From a virus, in the IMG/VR virus record IMGVR_UViG_3300045922_000924, positions 1 through 20,728 of that record: DNA of 20,728 nt; one strand, written 5' to 3'. The first letter of the stretch is position 1; each line of letters begins with the position of its first letter. Positions 4,595 to 20,728 of this stretch are shown here, piece after piece. The notes below the pieces were generated by a model. The model was given only the letters and a program-made list of their open reading frames with translations. It was not told the origin of the DNA and did no database searches. The position numbers and the translations under genes are program-made.

Positions 4595-5308
4595 TTATAT
4601 GTTTAGTTCTGATACTATTCTCCGTATTTTCTCGACAATTTTAGGATTGTTTTTTCGTTTTTCTATCCAATAGTCTGGTCTAATAAACGTTTCTAGTAAA
4701 ATTTTTTGTTCTTCGGTGGCTTCTCTTTTGTATTTTTCTTTAAACTTTTTACTTTCTAGTAATAGCCAAGGCGATAGTTGCCTTGTTCTTAACATATGTA
4801 AGATTTCATTTATTGAAATAGCAGAAAATATATCAGATATATCAACATCCAACGCAGACGCCTTTGCAACTAAACTGTCAATAGAAATTTTTACTTTTTT
4901 AAGTGGTGATAATTGATTATCTAAAAATTCAATATACAGACTATAGACCTCATCAGTTTTCCACAATGATGGTGGTAAATCTTTTTCTTTCATTAGCCAT
5001 AGAAACTTTTCTACGTCGGGCAACTTTACTGATTTTACAAATTTAGCAAACTCAATAAAAGTTCTGTAGTATTTGGAGTGAGCAAAACTTTCTGGTCTTT
5101 TTACAATTCTGTTATATGTTTTCATCCACATTACATAATAATTCAGTGCTGCTTGACCTATTGGCGTTTGCAGTTCTTCAGCACGAATCATATCTTTGCA
5201 CTTGTGTTGAAGAAACATATTTTCTCTAACAAAAAGCTTAGAGCAATATTTGCATTGATATCTCGGAGGTGTATAAGAAGATGTTTTTGCCACAAAAGTC
5301 ATTAGCAT
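4595..5308 (-). CDS. Unknown protein with N-terminal zinc finger
   Basis: This 237-aa protein has an N-terminal C-x2-C-x12-H-x-C zinc finger (C19, C22, H35, C37 in YQCKYCSKLF...FLQHKC), followed by a mostly helical body rich in aromatic and charged residues (ALNYYVMWMKTYNRIVKR, FIEFAKFVKSVKLPDVEKF, RQLSPWLLLESKKFKEKY). I recall similar proteins of unknown function in T4-like aquatic phages but cannot verify this. A finger plus helical body next to clamp-loader genes suggests a DNA- or RNA-binding role in replication or transcription, which is inference. Two starts are possible (ATG at 5308 or 5302); neither has a clear ribosome site. About 100 bases separate it from gp62, so it may have its own promoter. 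Confidence 0.8.
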   Translation of the reverse strand: MLMTFVAKTSSYTPPRYQCKYCSKLFVRENMFLQHKCKDMIRAEELQTPIGQAALNYYVMWMKTYNRIVKRPESFAHSKYYRTFIEFAKFVKSVKLPDVEKFLWLMKEKDLPPSLWKTDEVYSLYIEFLDNQLSPLKKVKISIDSLVAKASALDVDISDIFSAISINEILHMLRTRQLSPWLLLESKKFKEKYKREATEEQKILLETFIRPDYWIEKRKNNPKIVEKIRRIVSELNI

Positions 5309-5409: not shown

Positions 5410-5970
5410 TCAGTCTTCAAAAGCATCTCCAAACTTCCCTTTACTTGTTTTGTGTATGTTGTTTGCTTGTCCTTCGTCTTTACTATTGTTTTTTCTAACA
5501 TTTTTTACTCCCCATTCTTTACTTATTTTGTTAATATCTTCTTCTTGTTTTCCTAACTCTTCAGCACAATAAACAACATCGTCATACGACATCAAAGCCA
5601 ACGCTTCCGTCCCTTGTTTTTTGGAATAATTGTAATATTGACAAATTACATCGAGCGATACAGGTTTACTATTCACCGTTTTTGTTGGTAATTTGTTCCA
5701 ATAATATTTTTGTGATCGCCCACTACAAGCAATTGTTAATAAATCAAACAACAATTTTTTGTGTTGGTTTCCTAAGTTAAAGATACATTGATTAACAATT
5801 TCATTCAACAAATAAATTTGTTGTTTATTTGTTGTTCCTGAAAGCCAACGTTGAACAACAAACGGAATAAACTCTTTTACTTCTTGTTCTGAAAGAGTTT
5901 CATAATAAGTTATATTTTTTTTACTTATTTCGCCCAGCAACTTAAATAAGTCTAATCTTCTTTCTGCCAT
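5410..5970 (-). CDS. 62: Sliding clamp loader small subunit (gp62-like)
   Basis: This 186-aa protein is close to T4 gp62 in length (187 aa) and sits in the gp44 transcription unit. In T4, one gp62 joins four gp44 subunits to load the gp45 sliding clamp onto primer-template DNA. The central GRSQKYYWNK resembles the basic/aromatic motif of gp62 proteins. The first ~110 residues are helical; the C-terminal ~50 residues are charged and low in complexity (KNNSKDEGQANNIHKTSKGK), longer than I would expect in compact relatives. Its ATG lies 19 bases inside the end of the preceding zinc-ribbon gene and has no obvious Shine-Dalgarno, so it is probably translated by coupling. gp62 is poorly conserved in sequence, so the call depends partly on gene order. 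Confidence 0.75.
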   Translation of the reverse strand: MAERRLDLFKLLGEISKKNITYYETLSEQEVKEFIPFVVQRWLSGTTNKQQIYLLNEIVNQCIFNLGNQHKKLLFDLLTIACSGRSQKYYWNKLPTKTVNSKPVSLDVICQYYNYSKKQGTEALALMSYDDVVYCAEELGKQEEDINKISKEWGVKNVRKNNSKDEGQANNIHKTSKGKFGDAFED

Positions 5971-9244: not shown

Positions 9245-9796
9245 TTATTTAATAAAATCATTTATGTCAAAATTGTATGCATAGCTATCAACATCGTGCA
9301 GGCCAATTACATATAACACATATGAAGAAACTGATGAACCACGACCTACACCCCAGACAATATTTTTTTCTATTAAAGTATTTATTATAAAAATAATCGT
9401 TTGTAACACTGGAAACAAATGTTTTTTGTGGTATAACACAAGTTCTTTTGCTAATCTGGTTTCACGACCAAGAGTTTCTTCGCTTGATAAATTTTCAATA
9501 ATTTTGGTGTGTTTTGTTGCAACATACTCAATTACATTAATATTTTTATATTCTTCTGGTATTATCCATTGTTTTTTTGGGATTTCACAACTATTTTTTA
9601 CTAAAAGTTGTTTTTTGTTATCAACATTTTTGTTGTAACGAAGCGTTTCTTCATTGTGATAGTTAACATATTTAATATCATATAATGATATTAAACTATC
9701 AATTTCTGATGGATCAAATGATGATATTCCATCAAACCACAACGTTCTGTCCGCTAATTTTGTATTAAGTGAATGAACTTTTGTATGGTTTTCCAT
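9245..9796 (-). CDS. DNA polymerase III alpha-like fragment protein
   Basis: This ~183-aa protein ends with GVGRGSSVSSYVLYVIGLHDVDSYAYNFDINDFIK, closely following the GxGRGSAAGSLVAYxLGITxIDPLxYxLxFERFL motif of bacterial replicative polymerase (DnaE/PolC) palms. It stops just before the place where the catalytic PDxDxD aspartates would come, so it cannot be a polymerase by itself. The upstream half has a polymerase-like PEEYKN segment and a helical LAKELVLYHKKHLFPVLQTI region. I chose ATG 9796 because the longer ORF (from 9850) overlaps the upstream gene by 86 rather than 32 bases; ribosome signals do not settle it. I recall similar short DnaE-like proteins in T4-like aquatic phages. A regulatory or DNA-binding role is possible; none is shown. 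Confidence 0.75.
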   Translation of the reverse strand: MENHTKVHSLNTKLADRTLWFDGISSFDPSEIDSLISLYDIKYVNYHNEETLRYNKNVDNKKQLLVKNSCEIPKKQWIIPEEYKNINVIEYVATKHTKIIENLSSEETLGRETRLAKELVLYHKKHLFPVLQTIIFIINTLIEKNIVWGVGRGSSVSSYVLYVIGLHDVDSYAYNFDINDFIK

Positions 9797-10118
9797 CTGT
9801 TGTATCCACAGCAGGTGTTTTTGCAGGTATTCCTGAATCTGGAGACCCAAACAAAGGATTAATAGTAGACGGACTTGGTTGTGGTGGAACAGGAAGATTT
9901 GATGGTGGAAGAGGGAAATTGTTCGGTTCCATCATACTTCTCTGTACTGGTCTTGGCTGTTGCGGTAATGTATTCTGTGTTTCGGTTATGCTATCAATTT
10001 TTTCACGAATACGTTTCCATTGTGTGGGGGAAGGTGTCCAGTTTTCATCCTGCATTTCTTCAACGCCCTCTAACCACATCTTGAAATCTTTAATTGTTAT
10101 TTGTTTATCGTTTGCCAT
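9765..10118 (-). CDS. Unknown protein with proline-rich tail
   Basis: This 117-aa protein has a charged, aromatic N-terminal half (DKQITIKDFKMWLEGVEEMQ, then WTPSPTQWKRIREKID) that looks folded and helical, and a proline-rich C-terminal half (PLPPSNLPVPPQPSPSTI) that is probably disordered. The N-terminal pattern is one I recall from conserved unknown proteins of T4-like aquatic phages. A CAGGAAC ribosome site lies ahead of the ATG. Its end overlaps the DnaE-like gene and its start lies 2 bases from the preceding gene, so it belongs to the same transcription unit. Tryptophan-containing helices plus a flexible tail suggest a protein-interaction role, which is inference. Confidence 0.8.
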   Translation of the reverse strand: MANDKQITIKDFKMWLEGVEEMQDENWTPSPTQWKRIREKIDSITETQNTLPQQPRPVQRSMMEPNNFPLPPSNLPVPPQPSPSTINPLFGSPDSGIPAKTPAVDTTDGKPYKSSFT

Positions 10119-10120
10119 TT

Positions 10121-10612
10121 TTATGTTCCTGTAATGTCACTAACAATCATATTTCTTAAATACTTATTATAACTATCAGACGGGGATATGTTTACCCACG
10201 AGTCACTAGATATTGGATGACATAACATTTGAAATTTATTTAAAGAAGGGGAAATGTGTTTATATTCTGGAAAATAATTTGTTACGGAAATTGGTGCTCC
10301 AGCATGGGAACCTTTTTTTGGTCCATATATAAAAGCTGTGAATTCCATTCCTAAAATTTCTTTTATTTCAGCAACATCAAGTTGAGATGTTTCTTTATCA
10401 TAAATTAAAATATTCCAATGTGAAGGAACAACAAAACGATAACCAAGAATTTCTATTTCAATTCCTGGACATATTGTTTCTTCAATCACTGAAAGAGGTG
10501 ATAAAGTAAAGTCCATCATAGTAAAATCAAGAACCCAAATGTGGGTCGTTACTATTGGAGTATTTACGCTATCAATTATGATTGGTTGTGAGTTTTCGTC
10601 AAAAATTAACAT
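10121..10612 (-). CDS. Conserved-looking phage protein of unknown function
   Basis: This 163-aa protein is predominantly beta: THIWVLDFTMMDFTLSPLSV, then IEIEILGYRFVVPSHWNILIY and TAFIYGPKKG, ending with LNKFQMLCHPISSDSWVNISPSD and NKYLRNM. The VPSHWNILIYDKETSQLD and HP...WVNISP segments are ones I recall from unnamed proteins of T4-like aquatic phages. No catalytic motif, signal peptide or membrane segment is visible. No clear Shine-Dalgarno precedes the ATG. It is followed two bases later by the proline-rich-tail gene and preceded by uvsW with a 29-base gap. Its place beside recombination genes could mean a DNA-metabolism role but does not prove one. Confidence 0.8.
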   Translation of the reverse strand: MLIFDENSQPIIIDSVNTPIVTTHIWVLDFTMMDFTLSPLSVIEETICPGIEIEILGYRFVVPSHWNILIYDKETSQLDVAEIKEILGMEFTAFIYGPKKGSHAGAPISVTNYFPEYKHISPSLNKFQMLCHPISSDSWVNISPSDSYNKYLRNMIVSDITGT

Positions 10613-10641: not shown

Positions 10642-12168
10642 TTATACAATTTCTTTTAATTGTTCAACGTATTTTATTTTGTGTTTTTTATACGGATAAT
10701 TTGCTTCTTTATAATATTTTATTCGTTCTGTAGTATGTCGTTTACTATACTTCATATCGCTACTAACATCTATAATATTGACAAAATCTTTATCTTCCGC
10801 TTTTCTTAAACCTCTTCCTACCGCTTGAATTACTCGGATAAATGATTTGCCAACATCAATCAATATTAAATTAAAAATACGACGAATGTTTAATCCTGTT
10901 CCTGCAATATGAACAGTTGCAATAACAACAAGATTATCATTGTCTTTAAATAAATCATACACATACTGACGCTGTTTTGTATCTTTTACGTCTTGACCGT
11001 TAATAAAAACCGAATTATTGATATATTTTGCTAGTTTTCTTCCAAAAGAAATACTATCAACAAGACACAATGTATTTCCTTTTTTGTTATCTCTCTTTTC
11101 CTCAATCATATTTGCTATCCAACGAATTCGTTTATCTTGTTTTTGCAAATATGATTTTTCAGCGGAAAAATCAGGAAAATATTGTTCTTTAAACTCTTCA
11201 TAAGAAATTGGATCACCAACACATTCATCTAAAAATTGTCGATAATCTTTTTCGAGATTTTCTTCGAGCTGTAAGATATCGATTTGAAGGTTAGCAAGAA
11301 CACCTTGATTAATTAAGTGATCTGCATTTACAGAATAACGTACAGGACCTACAGCAACTTTTACAGCAAGTTCATCCGTTTTTTCTTTTGGCATCGTTCC
11401 TGTGAAACCAAACCTTAAAGGAATATTAGCAGCGTGGTTTGTTAATATTTGACCAAGAACGTTCCCTTTCAACCCGTGACACTCGTCAACAATTACCATT
11501 TGAAAGTGTGCCACAAGACTTGGATTATTTTTTAATGCTTGCCAAGTTGATACAACATGTTTATGTTCTATTGTTTTGTATGCTCCACTATATTCGCCTG
11601 TGTCAAGTTTGCAATTGATATATTCATTTTTTGTTTGTTTAATTAAGTCTTGGTTTGGTACGATTGTAAGCGAACGGATATTATATTTGTCGTATGCTTT
11701 TACGAGAGCAGAAGTCATTAATGTTTTACCGCTTCCTGTAGAAGCAACAACAACACCGTGACCTGCTTCAATTAAGCTATTGACAGCATCCACTTGGTGC
11801 GGTTTAAGAATGATTGGTTGCTGTGTATCTAAATGTAAAATGTCTGAAAAAATATTTTCATTAATTTTTTCAGGCAAAGGAACCTCTGTCTTTCTGTTAT
11901 CTTCAAGACGAATTTTATATCCAAGTTTTGATATTTTTGGTAAAATTTCTTCTGCAAGATACAGATAAGTTTTTCCCGAATTTGAATTTTTTGCTGTACG
12001 TTGAAAAAAACGTATTTTTCCATCCCAACGTCCAAGCTTAAATTTTGGGTTAAAAAAATAATTGGGAGCATACAGTCCATACATATCATAAAACATTTCA
12101 ATATGTTCAGATTTAAGACCGATCACTGCCATAAACACTTCATCTAAAATCCTTACAGTTACTTTCAT
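10642..12168 (-). CDS. uvsW: UvsW RNA-DNA and DNA helicase
   Basis: This 508-aa superfamily 2 helicase matches T4 UvsW (about 500 aa), which drives branch migration, unwinds R-loops and helps switch T4 from origin- to recombination-dependent replication. The N-terminal UvsW domain is recognisable (YFFNPKFKLGRWDGKIRFF, residues 37-55; T4 has FNPRFRYGNWDGRIRL). Helicase motifs run in order: Q/motif I region LKPHQVDAV and Walker A STGSGKT at 143-149, motif II VDECH at 227-231, motif III GFTGT at 254-258, and motif VI QAVGRGLRK at 448-456. All catalytic residues are present. It starts 3 bases after uvsY, as a recombination cassette. The ribosome site is weak, which suggests coupling to uvsY translation. 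Confidence 0.95.
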   Translation of the reverse strand: MKVTVRILDEVFMAVIGLKSEHIEMFYDMYGLYAPNYFFNPKFKLGRWDGKIRFFQRTAKNSNSGKTYLYLAEEILPKISKLGYKIRLEDNRKTEVPLPEKINENIFSDILHLDTQQPIILKPHQVDAVNSLIEAGHGVVVASTGSGKTLMTSALVKAYDKYNIRSLTIVPNQDLIKQTKNEYINCKLDTGEYSGAYKTIEHKHVVSTWQALKNNPSLVAHFQMVIVDECHGLKGNVLGQILTNHAANIPLRFGFTGTMPKEKTDELAVKVAVGPVRYSVNADHLINQGVLANLQIDILQLEENLEKDYRQFLDECVGDPISYEEFKEQYFPDFSAEKSYLQKQDKRIRWIANMIEEKRDNKKGNTLCLVDSISFGRKLAKYINNSVFINGQDVKDTKQRQYVYDLFKDNDNLVVIATVHIAGTGLNIRRIFNLILIDVGKSFIRVIQAVGRGLRKAEDKDFVNIIDVSSDMKYSKRHTTERIKYYKEANYPYKKHKIKYVEQLKEIV

Positions 12169-12171
12169 GTT

Positions 12172-12630
12172 TTAAATTACTCGATCTTGTATGTTATTAA
12201 CAAAATGTTCAGTCATATTTCTTAATGTATATCCTCTTGTTTGAAAACAATCACACACACTTCTATATAAGTTTACTACATGTTCTATTTCAATTACGAG
12301 TTCGTGAATTGCAAGGTATGAAGGTTCCGAATCAATATAACTATCTCTTAATCTATCACCAAGATCAAAACTATAGTTTTCTTTATATTTTCGTGCTAAC
12401 GTGCTGCGAATTTTATCTTCTTGCATTTTAGCAAACTTTAACAAAGTTTCGAGCTCAATTCTTTTTTGTTCATAGTAGAAAGGCCAAGCAACTTGTTCTC
12501 TGTCAATTTGTTGAAGTGTTTTGCCCTGAAATGTTAAGATTGCTTCTACTTCTTTAATTGAAGCACGATATTCATCCAATGTTAATAATAACTTCTCAGG
12601 ATTTTTGAAAAGATTGGCTGGCGAATCCAT
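12172..12630 (-). CDS. uvsY: UvsY recombination mediator
   Basis: This 152-aa protein resembles T4 UvsY (137 aa), the mediator that loads UvsX recombinase onto gp32-coated single-stranded DNA. It is almost wholly helical, with an aromatic/charged core (WPFYYEQKRIELETLLKFAK, IRSTLARKYKEN), an acidic middle, and the C-terminal LYRSVCDCFQTRGYTLRNMTE, matching the end of T4 UvsY (SRGFAIKHIQDM). I chose ATG 12630; the only longer form needs a TTG at 12669 and would overlap the upstream gene by 32 bases. No strong ribosome site is visible. The adjacent uvsW supports the call. UvsX itself is not in this window. Confidence 0.82.
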   Translation of the reverse strand: MDSPANLFKNPEKLLLTLDEYRASIKEVEAILTFQGKTLQQIDREQVAWPFYYEQKRIELETLLKFAKMQEDKIRSTLARKYKENYSFDLGDRLRDSYIDSEPSYLAIHELVIEIEHVVNLYRSVCDCFQTRGYTLRNMTEHFVNNIQDRVI

Positions 12631-12637
12631 AAGATTT

Positions 12638-13267
12638 TTATTGTTTAGTTTTGGTTTGTGTTGTTTCAAATAATGCTAACATTCGTAGTTGTTCAGGAGT
12701 TAGTTGTTCTCCCGTAAAAGTTGGTGTAAATATTTTAACTGAATTTGTCTCGGATGGTTTCTCTTCAATTAAATTCGCAAGTTGTGTTGTGATGTTGTTT
12801 ATATTATCTGTTGTATCCGTATTTGTTGTTTCTTGTTGAGACGGTTTAAGATATATGGTTGGTATACTCGTTTGAGTCTTTTGTTGGTTTTTTAGTCTTT
12901 CTGTTAAGTAAGCAAAAATAATTTCTTTTGGTGCAAAGCATAATGTTACTGGTATTACAATTTTAATTAGTCGTTGCACACTTACTATATCTTCATTATC
13001 TTCTGTGGGAGCAAGTTCTTGAAGAAAGTCTGGAACGTTATCGACGTCATGTGTTACCAGTGCGCTAATTAATAAAATTCCTTCCCTTAAGTCAACTGTA
13101 TACCATTCTGTTTTTTCAGATTGTGTGTTAAGGAATTCGGCTAGTATCGGAAAGAGATGTTCTTGTAGTACGTGTTTTATAACAGACGTTTGTCTATCGT
13201 ACTCGTGGTCTCTTAACAGAATCATTTCAACTAATAATTTTGTTTTGTCAAGTTGTTCTTTTTTCAT
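12638..13267 (-). CDS. Unknown protein upstream of uvsY
   Basis: This 209-aa protein has a helical N-terminal ~135 residues (LDKTKLLVEMILLRDHEYDR, VIKHVLQEHLFPILAEFL, IKIVIPVTLCFAPKEIIFAYLTERL), then a Thr/Asn/Gln-rich linker (ETTNTDTTDNINNITTQ) and a short ordered end (TGEQLTPEQLRMLALFETTQ). I do not recognise a family. Its ATG sits at the very edge of the RuvC-nuclease element: the AAGGA ribosome site ahead of it lies inside sequence that is duplicated at the right end of the window, so the element may have brought it. uvsY follows after 7 bases, so this gene is the promoter-proximal member of the uvsY-uvsW unit. Confidence 0.78.
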   Translation of the reverse strand: MKKEQLDKTKLLVEMILLRDHEYDRQTSVIKHVLQEHLFPILAEFLNTQSEKTEWYTVDLREGILLISALVTHDVDNVPDFLQELAPTEDNEDIVSVQRLIKIVIPVTLCFAPKEIIFAYLTERLKNQQKTQTSIPTIYLKPSQQETTNTDTTDNINNITTQLANLIEEKPSETNSVKIFTPTFTGEQLTPEQLRMLALFETTQTKTKQ

Positions 13268-13480
13268 ATAAAATAAATTTTCCTTATAAATTCATATAAG
13301 TAATACAAATCTATAGAACACCAACCAAACTAGCTGGTGACTGGAAAATTCTGAAAACCGACTCATCTGGAACCGGAACCCGATATTTCAATTTCGAGTT
13401 TTTGACCCAAGAATGTAGCTCTTTCCAAGTCTCTACCAAAGGTATCTTGGTTTCCTTCCATAGGTCCTCTAGATACGATA
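13267..13480 (-). repeat. Duplicated 3' end of RuvC nuclease element, copy 1
   Basis: This 214-base segment matches 20515-20728 with nine substitutions by my alignment (about 96% identity) and no gap. It covers the last ~56 codons of the nuclease gene, its stop and 44 bases of downstream non-coding DNA. The match ends abruptly next to the start codon of the following gene. The right copy runs off the window, so the true repeat is longer. Confidence 0.92.
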
Positions 13481-14018
13481 CTGCTGGTAGTTTTGGATAG
13501 AACTGTTTGTTCTTGAGTATCACAAGCCGGTAGCCTCGTTGTGCAATCTCAGTACTTGCGGCTATCGGGTCTGGTAATTCGGGATGCAGAATGTTTCCTA
13601 TGGTTGAGGAATATGCTGCATTGATTTCATATAACTTAAAGTATTTGGCTAGAATTGATATTAAAGTTGTTTTCTTCCATTGATTTTGTGTTAAGCGGTT
13701 GAAGTTCTTACCTATCCTTTTATCGCCTTGTTTAAATTTTAGCTTTTCAATGAACAGTTTATCAACCCGCAAATGTTGTAACCACTTACCTATTGCATGC
13801 CCAATTTCTCTTGTTTCATGTTCAAGTTTTGAAGCACTGGCATTTTTCCCAGTCAGTGATTTCAACGAGAACAGCTCAGTTTCAATCAACTCTGTTCCAT
13901 TAAAAACCGAGACGCCGATGTAGTTTGGATTCATATCAATGCCTGCATATCTATTCTTGATTGGCTTTGGAATCTTTCTGATTAAGAAATTTATATTGGT
14001 TATAATGTATTTATACAA
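13311..14018 (-). CDS. TnpB/Cas12-type RuvC nuclease, 5'-truncated
   Basis: This 235-aa product is a RuvC-fold nuclease domain of the TnpB/OrfB kind. RuvC-I is YAGIDMNPNYIGVSV (catalytic Asp), RuvC-II is KLFIEKLKFKQG (Glu) and RuvC-III is LPDPIAASTEIAQRG (Asp), so the D-E-D triad is intact. The C-x2-C zinc ribbon usual between RuvC-II and -III is missing; AYSSTIGN sits there instead. The upstream DNA-recognition domain of TnpB is absent: the frame opens only ~10 codons before the listed TTG, and no in-frame ATG precedes the RuvC-I Asp. It may be a decayed gene or a RuvC-only form, perhaps resolvase-like. Its 3' end is duplicated at the right edge of the window. Confidence 0.7.
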   Translation of the reverse strand: MYKYIITNINFLIRKIPKPIKNRYAGIDMNPNYIGVSVFNGTELIETELFSLKSLTGKNASASKLEHETREIGHAIGKWLQHLRVDKLFIEKLKFKQGDKRIGKNFNRLTQNQWKKTTLISILAKYFKLYEINAAYSSTIGNILHPELPDPIAASTEIAQRGYRLVILKNKQFYPKLPAVSYLEDLWKETKIPLVETWKELHSWVKNSKLKYRVPVPDESVFRIFQSPASLVGVL

Positions 14019-14080
14019 TTTCAGTTTTGCTTCTAATAATAGTATTTACTAAACTACCGCTTGTATTAACAACTTTTGAA

Positions 14081-14192: not shown

Positions 14193-15155
14193 TTAGTCTA
14201 AGATTAAACTAATAGACTGTTTATGATCAATTCGTGTAATTGTCTCAGCGAGCAGCCCAGATATTGATATTTGTTCAATCTTTGGATTATTTTTCATACT
14301 ATCAGGTAATTTAACACTATCAGTTATAAACAACATTTTTAGTTTTGAGTTTAAAATGTTTTCGTTTGCTTTTCCCGATAATACACCATGTGTAACATAT
14401 GCAACTACTTGCTTAGCACCCTTTTCTATCAAGGCATCAGCAGCTTTACCAAGCGTTCCAGCAGTATCGACCATATCGTCTATAATAATACAAGTTTTGT
14501 TTTCAACATCACCAATAATGTTCATTACTTCAGAAACGTTTGCGTTTGGTCTTCTTTTATCAACAATTGCCAAATCAATATTATCCAGATGTTTGGCAAC
14601 TGACCTGGCTCTTGCTACACCCCCAACGTCTGGGGAAATAATAATTGGATTTTCAGATATCCAGTTTTTATAAATCGATGCAACAAATAAATGTGTTGCT
14701 GAAATATTATCGACAGGGATTTTATAAAACCCTTGAATTTGTGTAGCGTGTAAATCGACAGTAATCAAGTGATCAATACCAGAATACTGCAAAATATCAG
14801 CAACAACTCTTGCTGATATTGGGACCCGTGAATAACCTGGTCTTCTATCTTGTCTCGAATAACCTAAATATGGAATTACAGCAACGACTCTTTTTACACT
14901 AGAACGCTTGAGAGCATCAGCAAGGAGTGCCGTTTCCATTAACGAATCGTTACAAGGCGGCGAAATGCTGGAAACAATAAAAGCTCTTTGGCCTCTTACG
15001 TTTTGTTGAATTTCAATTCGTGTTTCGCCATCACTAAATTTTTCATTAATAAATTTACCTACATAAGTTTGGGTTCGCTCAATTTCTGTTTTAAGATGTT
15101 TACAAATTCCATCTTTTATAGATGAAGAAACGTTTCCAAAAAATAAAACGCTCAT
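14193..15155 (-). CDS. prs: Ribose-phosphate pyrophosphokinase (PRPP synthetase)
   Basis: This 320-aa enzyme is a full-length class I PRPP synthetase (E. coli 315 aa). It makes PRPP from ribose 5-phosphate and ATP, the precursor for purine, pyrimidine, NAD, His and Trp synthesis. Signature segments are FSDGE at 40-44, YSRQDRR in the flexible loop (99-105), VDLHATQIQGF at 133-143 with the metal/ATP-site His, and the PRPP-binding loop CIIIDDMVDTAGTL at 222-235. No truncation is evident. A perfect consensus sigma70 promoter and an AAAGGAA ribosome site precede it, consistent with early expression in the cytoplasm. As a phage auxiliary metabolic gene it probably raises nucleotide or NAD supply; no nicotinamide phosphoribosyltransferase partner lies in this window. 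Confidence 0.96.
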   Translation of the reverse strand: MSVLFFGNVSSSIKDGICKHLKTEIERTQTYVGKFINEKFSDGETRIEIQQNVRGQRAFIVSSISPPCNDSLMETALLADALKRSSVKRVVAVIPYLGYSRQDRRPGYSRVPISARVVADILQYSGIDHLITVDLHATQIQGFYKIPVDNISATHLFVASIYKNWISENPIIISPDVGGVARARSVAKHLDNIDLAIVDKRRPNANVSEVMNIIGDVENKTCIIIDDMVDTAGTLGKAADALIEKGAKQVVAYVTHGVLSGKANENILNSKLKMLFITDSVKLPDSMKNNPKIEQISISGLLAETITRIDHKQSISLILD

Positions 15156-15550: not shown

Positions 15551-16807
15551 TCATTCAAATTTCACTGTAGTGCCATGTGGCGCAACAACATTAGTCTTAT
15601 AAGCGAGCCAAAGAGTGGGAGCATAGTCAGGATCCCCCCATGTACTGCACTCCATGTCAGTGAAACAAACTAATTGCTTGGGCACAATTTCTTCCCCTTT
15701 CAGAAATTCCCAGATGCAATTGAAGTCTGTTCCTCCATCACCTTTAATTTCATAATCGTAAATTTCATGGACATTTTCCTCGGTGAACGTCTGGCGGTTG
15801 TAGACTTGAGTGTCAAAAGATGCAACGTTAATTTTAAACGAAGCGTGCTGTTGCATAATGCCAACTACTTCTGACATGAATACCTTCATTTCGTCGGGTC
15901 CAATGGACCCAGACGCGTCCAAGAATATATCAGCTTCTACTGTAGGTTCGCGTTGCATTGAAGGAAGAACTGCATCACACAACCAACCACGACGATTCGG
16001 GCGCATATAGGTGAAATCATTCTTAATTTGAGATTCAATTTGTTGAACCAAGAGTTCTTTCCAGTTCATCTTGGGTTCTGTCAAATCCTTGATCAAGCGA
16101 CGGACACCAAGGGGAACATTGCCAACGCCATGAGCCTGGACCGAAGACATTATCGCATCACGAAGTTCGTCCCTGATCTCCGACAGTTCTTTCTCAGACA
16201 GACGTGGTTTTCCATTTGGATCTTCACCATCTCCCTCAGTGTCATTGCCAGCATCAGATTCCAGGTGCTCATCAAGCACTTGAGATAACAGACTGTCGAT
16301 AGAAATTTTCTCTGCATCTTCCATGAGCTTCTCGTAGATCTCTTCCGCAGACATGTCTTTGAATTGCGGATCAAAGAGGCAAGGAAATGTGGTGATTCTC
16401 TCGCCGATCTTGAATTCAATCAGATCTCGGTTGACTGCATAGTCAGCAGCAATATTCCAAAGTTGGGCATTGCGACCACCGCAACGTCCGCTTTTGCCCA
16501 CATGTTCATAGACAGCATGAAGAATTTCATGTCCTATTAAGAAAATCACTTCTCGAGGTTTGAGCATGTTGACAAATTTAGAATTGTACCAAAGTGTCCG
16601 CCCATCGGTTGCGGCAGTGGGACACCAGTCAACATCACTCACCAGCCTTAAGCGAGATGCAATATTGCCCCAGAACGGAGTGTGCATAAGCATCGCAATT
16701 CGCGCTACTATGATTGCTTGTTCTGCTTGGCTTTTCTCGGCAGCAGTAGGTTCGCCTTTGATTTTTTCCAGCAACGTTGGATCATTGATTTTGGATTTAG
16801 ACGTCAT
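15551..16807 (-). CDS. HExxH metallopeptidase-like / VWA domain protein
   Basis: This 418-aa protein has the two-part layout of the DUF2201 family. The N-terminal metallopeptidase-like domain shows HEILH at 93-97, followed by LWNIAADYAVNRDL (117-129) as expected for the third zinc ligand region. An acidic linker (about 165-205, ESDAGNDTEGDGEDPNG) leads to a C-terminal VWA domain with a MIDAS DASGS at 297-301, GGTD at 358-361 and CFTDM at 381-385. In cells such proteins work with MoxR-type AAA+ ATPases, and one is encoded just upstream. Metal-dependent peptidase activity is plausible but unproven. An AAGGAAAA ribosome site lies within the 58-aa gene, whose end overlaps this start by 11 bases. 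G+C is higher than in the replication genes. Confidence 0.88.
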   Translation of the reverse strand: MTSKSKINDPTLLEKIKGEPTAAEKSQAEQAIIVARIAMLMHTPFWGNIASRLRLVSDVDWCPTAATDGRTLWYNSKFVNMLKPREVIFLIGHEILHAVYEHVGKSGRCGGRNAQLWNIAADYAVNRDLIEFKIGERITTFPCLFDPQFKDMSAEEIYEKLMEDAEKISIDSLLSQVLDEHLESDAGNDTEGDGEDPNGKPRLSEKELSEIRDELRDAIMSSVQAHGVGNVPLGVRRLIKDLTEPKMNWKELLVQQIESQIKNDFTYMRPNRRGWLCDAVLPSMQREPTVEADIFLDASGSIGPDEMKVFMSEVVGIMQQHASFKINVASFDTQVYNRQTFTEENVHEIYDYEIKGDGGTDFNCIWEFLKGEEIVPKQLVCFTDMECSTWGDPDYAPTLWLAYKTNVVAPHGTTVKFE

Positions 16808-16973
16808 CTGTGGTTTTCCTTGAATGGTCGTACTTTAGTAGGTAGTAGACTTTAACTTGTTCCAGCATTTCTTTCAACACCAAATCATTCTCTGCTTGCA
16901 TTCTGATCGAGTGCCAAAGCTGACTCTCTTTCATGGAATTGCGTAGCTTAGATATAGTATTTGGGTCTACCAT
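16797..16973 (-). CDS. 58-aa protein linking MoxR and VWA genes
   Basis: This short gene encodes 58 residues from MVDPNTISKLRNSMKESQLW to a charged end (KYDHSRKTTDDV). It fills the gap exactly: its ATG comes 3 bases after the MoxR stop, and its TAA lies 11 bases inside the VWA gene, which indicates translational coupling along the operon. The product is helical and amphipathic with no recognised motif. Its position suggests a small partner or adaptor of the ATPase/VWA pair; this is inference. The codon frame continues the higher G+C style of its neighbours, which supports it as a real gene. Confidence 0.72.
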   Translation of the reverse strand: MVDPNTISKLRNSMKESQLWHSIRMQAENDLVLKEMLEQVKVYYLLKYDHSRKTTDDV

Positions 16974-16976
16974 TTC

Positions 16977-18068
16977 TTAAACTTGAGTGGCCTTAAGGAT
17001 CAATGAACCAAAGCGTTCATGGAACTCCTTAAAGTTGGTCAGTTTAGAAGGCGTGAACGGAAGGTGATACTGTTGCAACATGACGCGAATTGCCATCACC
17101 ATCACTTCAGTCGTCAAACAATCCATAAAGAACCGTAGCACATTGTCTGCCTTGTTGTACCAGTTTTTATCCTTTTCGTCGTGTGCTGCCTTGAGTTCAT
17201 AAGCACAGGAAATTGCCAAAGAATACATCGCAGAGATTTCTTTGGTTTTCAACTCTTTGACTTTTCCTCCCAGCACATCCTTCGGATTTGGAAGGTTCGA
17301 TGAATTCTTACGGTGAGCTAGGAACTTCAATGCCATCCCCTCACCGACGGTGCCTGCAATCAAATCCGCAATCACAGATTCGTCGAGTTGCGGGTCTTTT
17401 AGGAATTCTGAAACGAATTCCCATGAACGAGGAGTAGCAAAGGATCTGCTAGAGCTTTTTGGATCGAAATCAAATAGACTGTTCTTGCTAAACTCGATAA
17501 AGCTCACTACGTCTGGGTGGATTTGATTATCCATTGCCCAGCGTGACCAAGAATCTGCGTCAACTCGCAACTCAACGTGAACAAACCGATTGGCTAGTGG
17601 AGCAGGTTGACGATAAGTCACGCCCCTATCTGAGTCTCGGTTACCTGCAGCGAAAATTACACAATTCTCAGGGAGCTTGTATGTCCCAACTCCTCGATCA
17701 AGGACTAGTTGATATGCCGCAGCTTGTACAGAAGGCGCAGCTGAGTTCATTTCGTCGAGGAAAAGGAACACCACAGGGTACTTGGACGCTTCCTCTTCCG
17801 TAGGAAGATCGACCGGAGGAGCCCATTCCATCTTATTGGATTCTTTGTTATAGTATGGAATACCTCGGAGGTCGGTCTGTTCACATTGCGAAAGACGCAC
17901 ATCATAAAACCTACCGCCCATCTCAGCGCAAAGTTGCGCTACCATGGAACTCTTACCTACACCCATCGGACCCCAGATGAATACTGGTCGCTTAATACGA
18001 GCACACGAACGCAACACTTTCATAAGTTGTTGACCAGTCACAGTACGGGTCGTTGAAATTTCAGCCAT
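16977..18068 (-). CDS. MoxR-type AAA+ ATPase
   Basis: This 363-aa protein is a MoxR/RavA-like AAA+ ATPase. From the chosen start (MAEISTTRTV), Walker A is GPMGVGKS at 33-40, Walker B is VVFLFLDEMN at 99-108, the sensor-1 region is FAAGNRDSDRG at 139-149 and the arginine region is PLANRF at 157-162. A helical lid follows (SFATPRSWEFVSEFL). I chose ATG 18068 over the longer frame from 18128 because a strong AAGGAGA lies just before it and the promoter -10 lies at the longer start. MoxR ATPases usually act as chaperone-like remodelers with VWA proteins, and a VWA/metallopeptidase gene follows in this operon. The substrate is unknown. Confidence 0.9.
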   Translation of the reverse strand: MAEISTTRTVTGQQLMKVLRSCARIKRPVFIWGPMGVGKSSMVAQLCAEMGGRFYDVRLSQCEQTDLRGIPYYNKESNKMEWAPPVDLPTEEEASKYPVVFLFLDEMNSAAPSVQAAAYQLVLDRGVGTYKLPENCVIFAAGNRDSDRGVTYRQPAPLANRFVHVELRVDADSWSRWAMDNQIHPDVVSFIEFSKNSLFDFDPKSSSRSFATPRSWEFVSEFLKDPQLDESVIADLIAGTVGEGMALKFLAHRKNSSNLPNPKDVLGGKVKELKTKEISAMYSLAISCAYELKAAHDEKDKNWYNKADNVLRFFMDCLTTEVMVMAIRVMLQQYHLPFTPSKLTNFKEFHERFGSLILKATQV

Positions 18069-18126
18069 TCTGGTTTCTCCTTGATTAAATGAGAGGGTTT
18101 GGTGTTGGTTATCACCGTTATCGAGC

Positions 18127-18154
18127 ATTGTACAGAAATTTAGGTAAAAGTCAA
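18127..18154 (-). promoter_or_regulatory. Sigma70-like promoter for the MoxR operon
   Basis: The minus strand has TTGACT (18149-18154), a 16-base spacer and TACAAT (18127-18132), about 60 bases before the chosen ATG. Hexamers match consensus at 5/6 each. It would start the MoxR/58-aa/VWA unit independently of the genes to its right, behind a weak terminator. Confidence 0.68.
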
Positions 18155-19869: not shown

Positions 19870-20325
19870 TTATTCGATTGTTAGTTTTCTAATTGTTTCC
19901 TGCGGTTCGTTGCGTTTGATGTTGATGTGAAGTAAACCATCCTCGAGTTTAGCGGATGTAATTTCATCACCATCACTTAACTGCCACTTACGGACGAATT
20001 GACGTGAAGCAATACCCTTTACAAGATATTTTTCGTCCGTTTTTGTTTCCTTTTTTGCAGCGATTGTAAGAACGTTTGTTGAATTTACTTCAATAGTAAT
20101 TTCTTCTTTCTTAAAACCAGCGACAGCAAGAGAAATTACATAACCATCTTCAGTTTTAATAATATCGTATGGTGGATAGTTTACTGAACGGATTCCAACA
20201 GGGAACGTTTTATCGAGCGTTTCAAACGCTCTTTCAGCATCTAACCACATTGAATTAATATCAGAAATCCACTTGTCAATGTCTGTTACTGTGTTTTTGA
20301 AAAGGGTTGGAAAGTATTTTGTCAT
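19870..20325 (-). CDS. hsp20: Small heat shock protein (Hsp20/alpha-crystallin)
   Basis: This 151-aa protein is a complete small heat shock protein, an ATP-independent holdase. The alpha-crystallin domain spans about 50-140: YPPYDIIKTEDGYVISLAVA, then VAGFKKEEITIEV and FVRKWQLSDGDEITSAKLED, ending in the characteristic GLLHINIKR. A C-terminal IRKLTI may act as the I-x-I type oligomer contact. The N-terminus (about 45 residues) is aromatic and variable, as usual. AAAGGAG precedes the ATG. The leader contains a 10-bp hairpin. Hsp20 genes occur in T4-like cyanophages, where they may protect phage or host proteins; the role here is inferred. Confidence 0.95.
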   Translation of the reverse strand: MTKYFPTLFKNTVTDIDKWISDINSMWLDAERAFETLDKTFPVGIRSVNYPPYDIIKTEDGYVISLAVAGFKKEEITIEVNSTNVLTIAAKKETKTDEKYLVKGIASRQFVRKWQLSDGDEITSAKLEDGLLHINIKRNEPQETIRKLTIE

Positions 20326-20413: not shown

Positions 20414-20533
20414 TTAGTGCTCTTTGAGCCACTCCAACAAATTATCTTGAATACTTTTACCTACACTAAACTCTTCTGTATTTATAATTGCAACACGTTT
20501 CCATTTATTTACATTATAAAATAAATTTTCCAT
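20414..20533 (-). CDS. 39-aa ORF starting in element sequence; possible gene remnant
   Basis: This frame encodes 39 residues, including WKRVAIINTEEFSVGKSIQD and the end NLLEWLKEH. The last ~30 look like a real protein C-terminus. The first six codons, including the ATG, lie inside the duplicated tail of the RuvC nuclease element; in the left copy the same position reads AAGG, so the ATG arose from one base change. No Shine-Dalgarno precedes it. Either the element truncated a longer gene and left its 3' end, or a short chimeric gene is expressed. No family is recognised. Confidence 0.4.
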   Translation of the reverse strand: MENLFYNVNKWKRVAIINTEEFSVGKSIQDNLLEWLKEH

Positions 20534-20728
20534 ATAAATTCATATAAGTAATACAAATCTATAGAACACCAACCAAACTAGCTGGCGACTGGAAAATTCT
20601 GAAAACCGACTCATCTGGAACCGGAACCCGATATTTCAATTTCGAGTTTTTGACCCAAGAATGTAGTTCTTTCCAGTTATTGACCAAAGGTATCTCGGTT
20701 TCCTTCCATAGGTCCTCTAGATACGATA
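20515..20728 (-). repeat. Duplicated 3' end of RuvC nuclease element, copy 2
   Basis: Second copy of the 214-base segment at 13267-13480, same orientation, with nine substitutions clustered partly at one site (five of the nine within seven bases). It continues past the right window edge. Homology stops about 44 bases after the nuclease stop codon, at the same point as in copy 1, which defines one element end. Confidence 0.92.
20559..20728 (-). CDS. RuvC nuclease (TnpB/Cas12-type), C-terminal end, copy 2
   Basis: The last 56 codons of a second nuclease gene are present, ending YRVPVPDESVFRIFQSPASL-VGVL like copy 1; the 5' part lies beyond the window. Compared with copy 1, the visible protein differs at three positions (E for K, then NN for ET) while two other base changes are silent. 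The frame is intact to the edge. This copy may be full length and could be the source of the truncated left copy, which cannot be judged here. Confidence 0.72.
   Translation of the reverse strand, partial: SYLEDLWKETEIPLVNNWKELHSWVKNSKLKYRVPVPDESVFRIFQSPASLVGVL

Follow-up and report, generated by a model that had tools for sequence, protein, structure and literature searches.

In eukaryotic midasin (Rea1/Mdn1), which works on ribosome precursors, AAA modules and the MIDAS domain share a single chain; it is not known to contain a zincin domain. In pairs of the RavA-ViaA and NorQ-NorD type, as in the pair described here, the MoxR ATPase and its VWA partner are separate proteins, and we know of no DUF2201 metallopeptidase-like domain in the VWA partners of that type. 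The clients of these pairs are known. In phages, the pairing of a MoxR-type ATPase with a vWA protein whose N-terminal part is a metallopeptidase domain was described in 2021 in the large T4-like phages of jumbo group 2.2, and a role in virion assembly was proposed (Iyer et al., 2021; PMC7824862). The stretch of DNA analyzed here, 20,728 nucleotides of the viral record IMGVR_UViG_3300045922_000924 (hereafter the window), carries a pair that fits this definition, having paired genes, a T4-like gene set (gp44, gp62, UvsW, and UvsY-like genes) and a relative with a 244-kb contig. It differs from the published jumbo-phage pair in the presence of a 58-aa gene between the two genes and in their translational coupling, and the evidence from promoters and gene context speaks for early use and not for virion assembly. 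The pair itself is known; what is new here is the verdict on the 58-aa gene, the terminator and promoter layout, the early/middle signals, and the GC3 of the trio.

Analysis of the ORFs in the window revealed three real genes on the minus strand, encoding a metallopeptidase-like/VWA protein (DUF2201 protein) of 418 aa (15551..16807), the 58-aa protein (16797..16973) and an AAA+ ATPase of 363 aa (16977..18068). The genes are tightly spaced, with a gap of 3 nt between the ATPase and 58-aa genes and an overlap of 11 nt between the 58-aa and VWA genes; the first-pass annotation of this DNA had called the three genes coupled. A sigma70-like promoter, TTGACT-16-TACAAT, lies ahead of the three genes on the same strand (18127..18154), and a similar site is kept in relatives. 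The longest ORF would place the ATPase start at 18128, a position that was rejected, as its ATG falls inside the -10 hexamer of this promoter. The start was corrected to 18068, because the ATG there is preceded by a ribosome site (AAGGAG) and the resulting length of 363 aa matches the 361–363 aa of the relatives.

The ATPase matched phrog_1297 at 7.7e-101 in the PHROGs profile search and the Pfam AAA model (PF00004) at 28.7 bits, above the cut-off of 21.2. It contains Walker A (GPMGVGKSS), Walker B (VVFLFLDE) and AAGNRD motifs together with arginine-finger and sensor-2 arginines, and residues G36, K39, S40, D105, E106, N143, R161, and R214 are invariant. The MoxR-type model AAA_3 (PF07726) scored below its curated cut-off (20.3 bits vs. 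27), as did AAA_5 (21.7 bits vs. 22); AAA_3 was matched at E <= 0.001 by 26 of 29 relatives. The nearest solved sequences were the AAA modules of midasin (E 1e-18 with the single sequence, 1e-23 with a profile), with which the phage pair also shares the logic of AAA plus MIDAS. Because the AAA_3 score is under the cut-off, the protein is best worded, at the level of sequence, as belonging to the MoxR/midasin clade and not as a core MoxR. The earlier proposal, in which a metallopeptidase-like/VWA protein partners a MoxR-type ATPase, is supported by domains, motifs and pairing.

The DUF2201 protein combines in one chain an N-terminal putative metallopeptidase domain (PF13203, 120 bits vs. a cut-off of 23.2, 1.9e-34) and a C-terminal VWA-like domain (PF09967, 64.5 bits vs. 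26.4, 1.3e-17), both above curated cut-offs, and matched phrog_1314 at 1.9e-99. The active-site motifs had been described as intact, and this was borne out in an alignment of 26 relatives, where H93, E94, H97 (the HEILH motif, residues 93–97), H102, and D122 are invariant, as are the MIDAS residues D297/S299/S301 (DASGS), T360, and D384. All of 16 diverse phage DUF2201 sequences kept the MIDAS and the His/His/His/Asp set, and 15 kept the catalytic Glu, which is Gln in Atu_ph07. In the rV5 record this Glu is Gly, but it is Glu in the sister phage ECTP4. Proteolysis may not be general among DUF2201 proteins, since the catalytic Glu is replaced in Atu_ph07 and in the rV5 record. The AlphaFold model (mean pLDDT 77) places HEILH on a helix (84–103) and D122 on another (114–131). 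In a profile search, the putative metallopeptidase region weakly matched structures of MJ1213 (E 0.003), which we take to be a minigluzincin, and a PDB fold search with the VWA model returned essentially VWA domains alone. Many phage records label the homologs of this protein (phrog_1314) as 'HNH endonuclease', an identity that was rejected, as Pfam finds no HNH domain; the label is an apparent mis-annotation that has been propagated.

Among 50,697 phage records, homologs of the VWA protein occurred in 798 and those of the ATPase protein in 852, and the numbers for the two families were almost alike in each host genus. The carriers include N4 (gp24/gp25), rV5-like phages, RaK2, GAP32, AR9, phage G, Atu_ph07, and the PA5oct group. 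N4 gp24/gp25 and the gp24-like/gp25-like proteins of RaK2 belong to the same two families, in the same order, and keep the HExxH and MIDAS motifs, although identity to the window proteins is low (27% for the N4 ATPase, 34% for the RaK2 VWA protein); a literature search found no published work on the function of N4 gp24/gp25. Distances between ATPases and between VWA proteins were strongly correlated over 27 non-redundant viral contigs with both genes (Mantel r = 0.94), a value reached in 0 of 2000 permutations, and by this measure the two genes are paired and co-evolve. A phage version of such a pair is nothing unusual, given its presence in hundreds of phage records and its earlier publication (PMC7824862).

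The 58-aa ORF is, on comparative grounds, a real gene, because it has homologs and because it differs from the 98%-identical 244-kb contig by two synonymous codon changes and one non-synonymous change. Searches with the protein recovered its own phage (98%) and 12 distant homologs in viral contigs, which form a small family of T4-like phages; no match was found by tblastn in isolate phage genomes, and none in Pfam. In a genome scan, two contigs encoded a relative, and the inspected one (L126) resembles T4-like phage sequence. The relatives are 84–105 aa long, and the window copy lacks their first ∼30 residues; its predicted structure consists of two helices (4–27 and 31–56, mean pLDDT 83), for which the best fold match was only a 74-aa uncharacterised phage protein (E 0.13). 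Retrieval of the flanking DNA revealed ATPase or VWA genes near none of the 12 distant homologs. Instead, 11 of the 12 sit in a T4-like replication cluster between UvsW and gp62, in the order UvsW, a 166-aa protein, the small gene, a gp62-like clamp-loader subunit and a C2H2-like protein, sometimes with one gene extra. The window itself encodes UvsW (10642–12168), a 163-aa relative of the 166-aa protein (10121–10612), gp62 (5410–5970) and the C2H2-like protein (4595–5308), and the sole copy of the 58-aa gene in the 244-kb relative is the one between the ATPase and VWA genes. Because 11 of the 12 relatives lie between UvsW and gp62, the gene order identifies the 58-aa gene as a relocated member of the replication cluster that is foreign to the ATPase-VWA pair, and it is probably a passenger.

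The first-pass annotation had regarded the 58-aa protein as an unexplained third component and had set the co-occurrence of all three genes in other phages as a check, with absence of the small gene from other MoxR-VWA loci counting against the idea. The pair recurs and the 58-aa gene does not: it was absent from all of the ∼60 ATPase-VWA intervals examined in other phages, and a search of these intervals for a small hidden ORF of this kind gave none that was homologous. A three-component module was rejected on this absence and on the location of the relatives in the replication cluster. Other genes occupy the interval elsewhere. In a sister group (L004, L009, L019, and L020) it holds a different gene of 97–120 aa (motif ...FGPGCERD...PRWAWYYD...), with no PHROG match for the two members tested, and in the PA5oct group four genes lie between the ATPase and VWA genes. 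Since the contents vary in this way, the interval is a site that gains and loses genes. The locus also differs from the ternary MoxR-vWA conflict systems (VMAP, iSTAND, FtsH, beta-propeller): the bpMoxR score was 20.6 bits vs. 27, and there is no conserved third component as in those systems, because the 58-aa gene has no Pfam match and is missing from the other loci.

The usual ATPase-VWA interval of the relatives is 84–119 bp long and consists of an intrinsic terminator followed by a near-consensus sigma70 promoter. Such a terminator was found in 20 of 23 short intervals, compared to 0.08 expected from shuffles, but not in the interval of the window; the N4 interval is 167 bp long with no evident terminator. 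The coupled operon of the window is, by comparison with these layouts, a derived exception among its relatives, and its VWA gene probably relies on translational coupling and on the promoter upstream. The claim that the operon has its own sigma70-like promoter was upheld only in part: taken alone, the TTGACT-16-TACAAT site of the window is within chance (three such sites found vs. 6.5 expected from shuffles), but the same kind of site, with a sigma70 score of at least 10/12, precedes the ATPase gene in 90% of non-redundant loci. The corresponding values were 81% upstream of the VWA gene and 12% upstream of other genes (n = 188 controls). The rV5 record has an annotated sigma70 promoter before the ATPase. 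In the AR9 record, an early promoter is marked ahead of the operon that holds the ATPase and VWA genes, and 41 of the 43 virion proteins of that phage are classed as late (PMC5312081). The T4 late motif TATAAATA was not found before the ATPase or VWA gene in the relatives, and it was rare in the controls too (5/188).

In N4-like phages the pair stands among early/middle genes, and its neighbors in various phages include RNAP2, dCTP/dCMP deaminase, thymidylate synthase, RIIA/B, DNA polymerase, exonuclease, and QueE. On the downstream side of the operon the window encodes a ribose-phosphate pyrophosphokinase (PRPP synthetase, 14193–15155), and on the upstream side an Hsp20 chaperone (19870–20325). 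Because of the sigma70 sites, the AR9 early promoter and this gene context, early/middle expression is favored over virion assembly. Virion-type genes also occur at the loci of relatives: in 20 of 39 the virion structural protein phrog_13349 is encoded about 3–5 kb upstream of the pair, and in 10 of 39 a tail-fiber-like gene lies about 4 kb downstream. Elsewhere in the window, a 165-aa protein resembling the recombination mediator UvsY (12172–12669; phrog_231, 1.5e-6) is encoded beside UvsW, and among the T4-like replication genes stands an ORF of 201 aa (9245–9850) that carries part of the NTPase domain of bacterial DNA polymerase III alpha (PF07733, 33.6 bits vs. 23.9).

The high G+C content reported for the operon was confirmed as a high GC3. 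Among the 164 genes of the 244-kb contig (mean GC3 0.25, sd 0.05), the ATPase ranked first (0.45) and the VWA gene third (0.41), and the 58-aa gene had a GC3 of 0.49 in the window. IS605-type or TnpB-like elements account for several of the other top-ranking genes. The proposal that the operon was acquired as a module gains support, because the GC3 outliers and the correlation between ATPase and VWA distances, unmatched in any permutation, both speak for joint acquisition of the ATPase/58-aa/VWA trio; strong codon bias may instead account for the high GC3. Across a dispersed TnpB-like element, the window brings together two segments that in the 244-kb contig are far from each other and inverted. 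The copy at the junction (13264–14046) is without its N-terminal half, and the window ends inside another copy (20516–20728). The closeness of the replication genes to the operon in the window is either a product of recombination or an assembly join, and since the two segments are far apart in the relative, the step in G+C along the window may partly reflect such a rearrangement or join.

About five copies of the TnpB-like element, some of them partial, were found in the 244-kb relative (450–1168, 64529–65782, 86891–87140, 119853–121106, and 169798–170514). The full protein, 417 aa, is ∼36% identical to the ISCaje4 TnpB of Campylobacter phage CP220, and at full length it had no match among the models of Pfam, PHROG and NCBIfam. 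The same contig carries further IS605 OrfB/TnpB-like genes (36248–37561, 40818–42083, 48470–49711, and 50149–51417), and the two tested have OrfB_IS605 and Cas12f1-like TNB domains. These genes have a high GC3, like the ATPase-VWA operon.

The reading that we consider probable, with some reserve, is that the pair is an ATP-driven remodeling machine made early or in the middle of infection, beside which the 58-aa gene has been relocated. From the evidence above we infer timing, client and activity in this phage as follows. The pair would be expressed from host-type promoters; the VWA domain would grip an acidic residue of a client protein through its MIDAS metal, the ATPase ring would remodel or unfold this client, and the zincin-like domain would clip it or bind metal. 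As the client, the virion is less likely than a complex, of the host or the phage, that serves takeover, transcription, replication or nucleotide metabolism. In the window phage, the small gene from the replication cluster has taken the place of the terminator and promoter, giving one translationally coupled operon. Running counter to an early role, sigma70-like sites may serve later too, and some relatives have phrog_13349 or the tail-fiber-like gene near the pair. Such virion-type neighbors agree with the published proposal for group 2.2 jumbo phages (PMC7824862), in which the pair could act as a chaperone-peptidase that folds and trims virion proteins, by analogy with Acidianus two-tailed virus (ATV). 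Pointing the same way, a fold search weakly matched the VWA protein ORF892 of ATV (E 3e-4), and one ATPase peptide of a distantly related ATPase-metallopeptidase pair was found in a virion preparation of a Staphylococcus jumbo phage (PMC10638138). We nevertheless regard virion assembly as unlikely, given that in relatives both genes have promoters of the host type, that AR9 has an early promoter and that the pair lies among early/middle genes in N4-like phages; set beside the ATV-type tail-assembly chaperone, the promoter and context signals tend to point to early use.

The early-type expression signals upstream of the pair genes would also suit a counter-defense or host-takeover protease that extracts and cleaves a host defense or regulatory protein, as would the HExxH motif, intact in 15 of 16 diverse sequences, and the high-GC3, likely acquired unit. 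This appears less likely again than virion assembly, since a pair kept across unrelated phages and hosts is unlikely to have a single narrow host target. A role in defense or counter-defense had been suggested for the locus, and the PADLOC defense models gave no evidence of one: the VWA and 58-aa proteins had no match, and the ATPase had two weak generic hits (E 0.01 and 0.041). A defense system was rejected on the same result. For bacterial MoxR-VWA pairs, two papers (PMC9976466, PMC13036017) give insertion of a metal or cofactor as an established role, and the phage ring and VWA protein might likewise open an enzyme, such as a metalloenzyme of nucleotide metabolism, with the zincin-like domain holding the metal, as in NorQD/CoxDE. 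Nucleotide-metabolism genes adjoin the pair, and the two homologs without the catalytic Glu keep the other conserved His and Asp residues, but an unsystematic look revealed no specific metalloenzyme consistently beside the pair, and we consider this role improbable. Least probable of the readings is that the 58-aa protein, as a truncated relative of the small protein encoded next to UvsW and the clamp loader, is an adaptor, captured between the ATPase and VWA genes, that would tether the remodeling machine to the phage replisome.

The apparent three-gene module is the wrong unit to study. If the adaptor reading were true, the entire MoxR-DUF2201 family of phages would have the replisome or clamp loader as its client. 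The ATPase-VWA pair is widely shared among large lytic phages, N4 and jumbo phages included, and the evidence presented here moves the testable hypothesis for its function from virion assembly to an early role.
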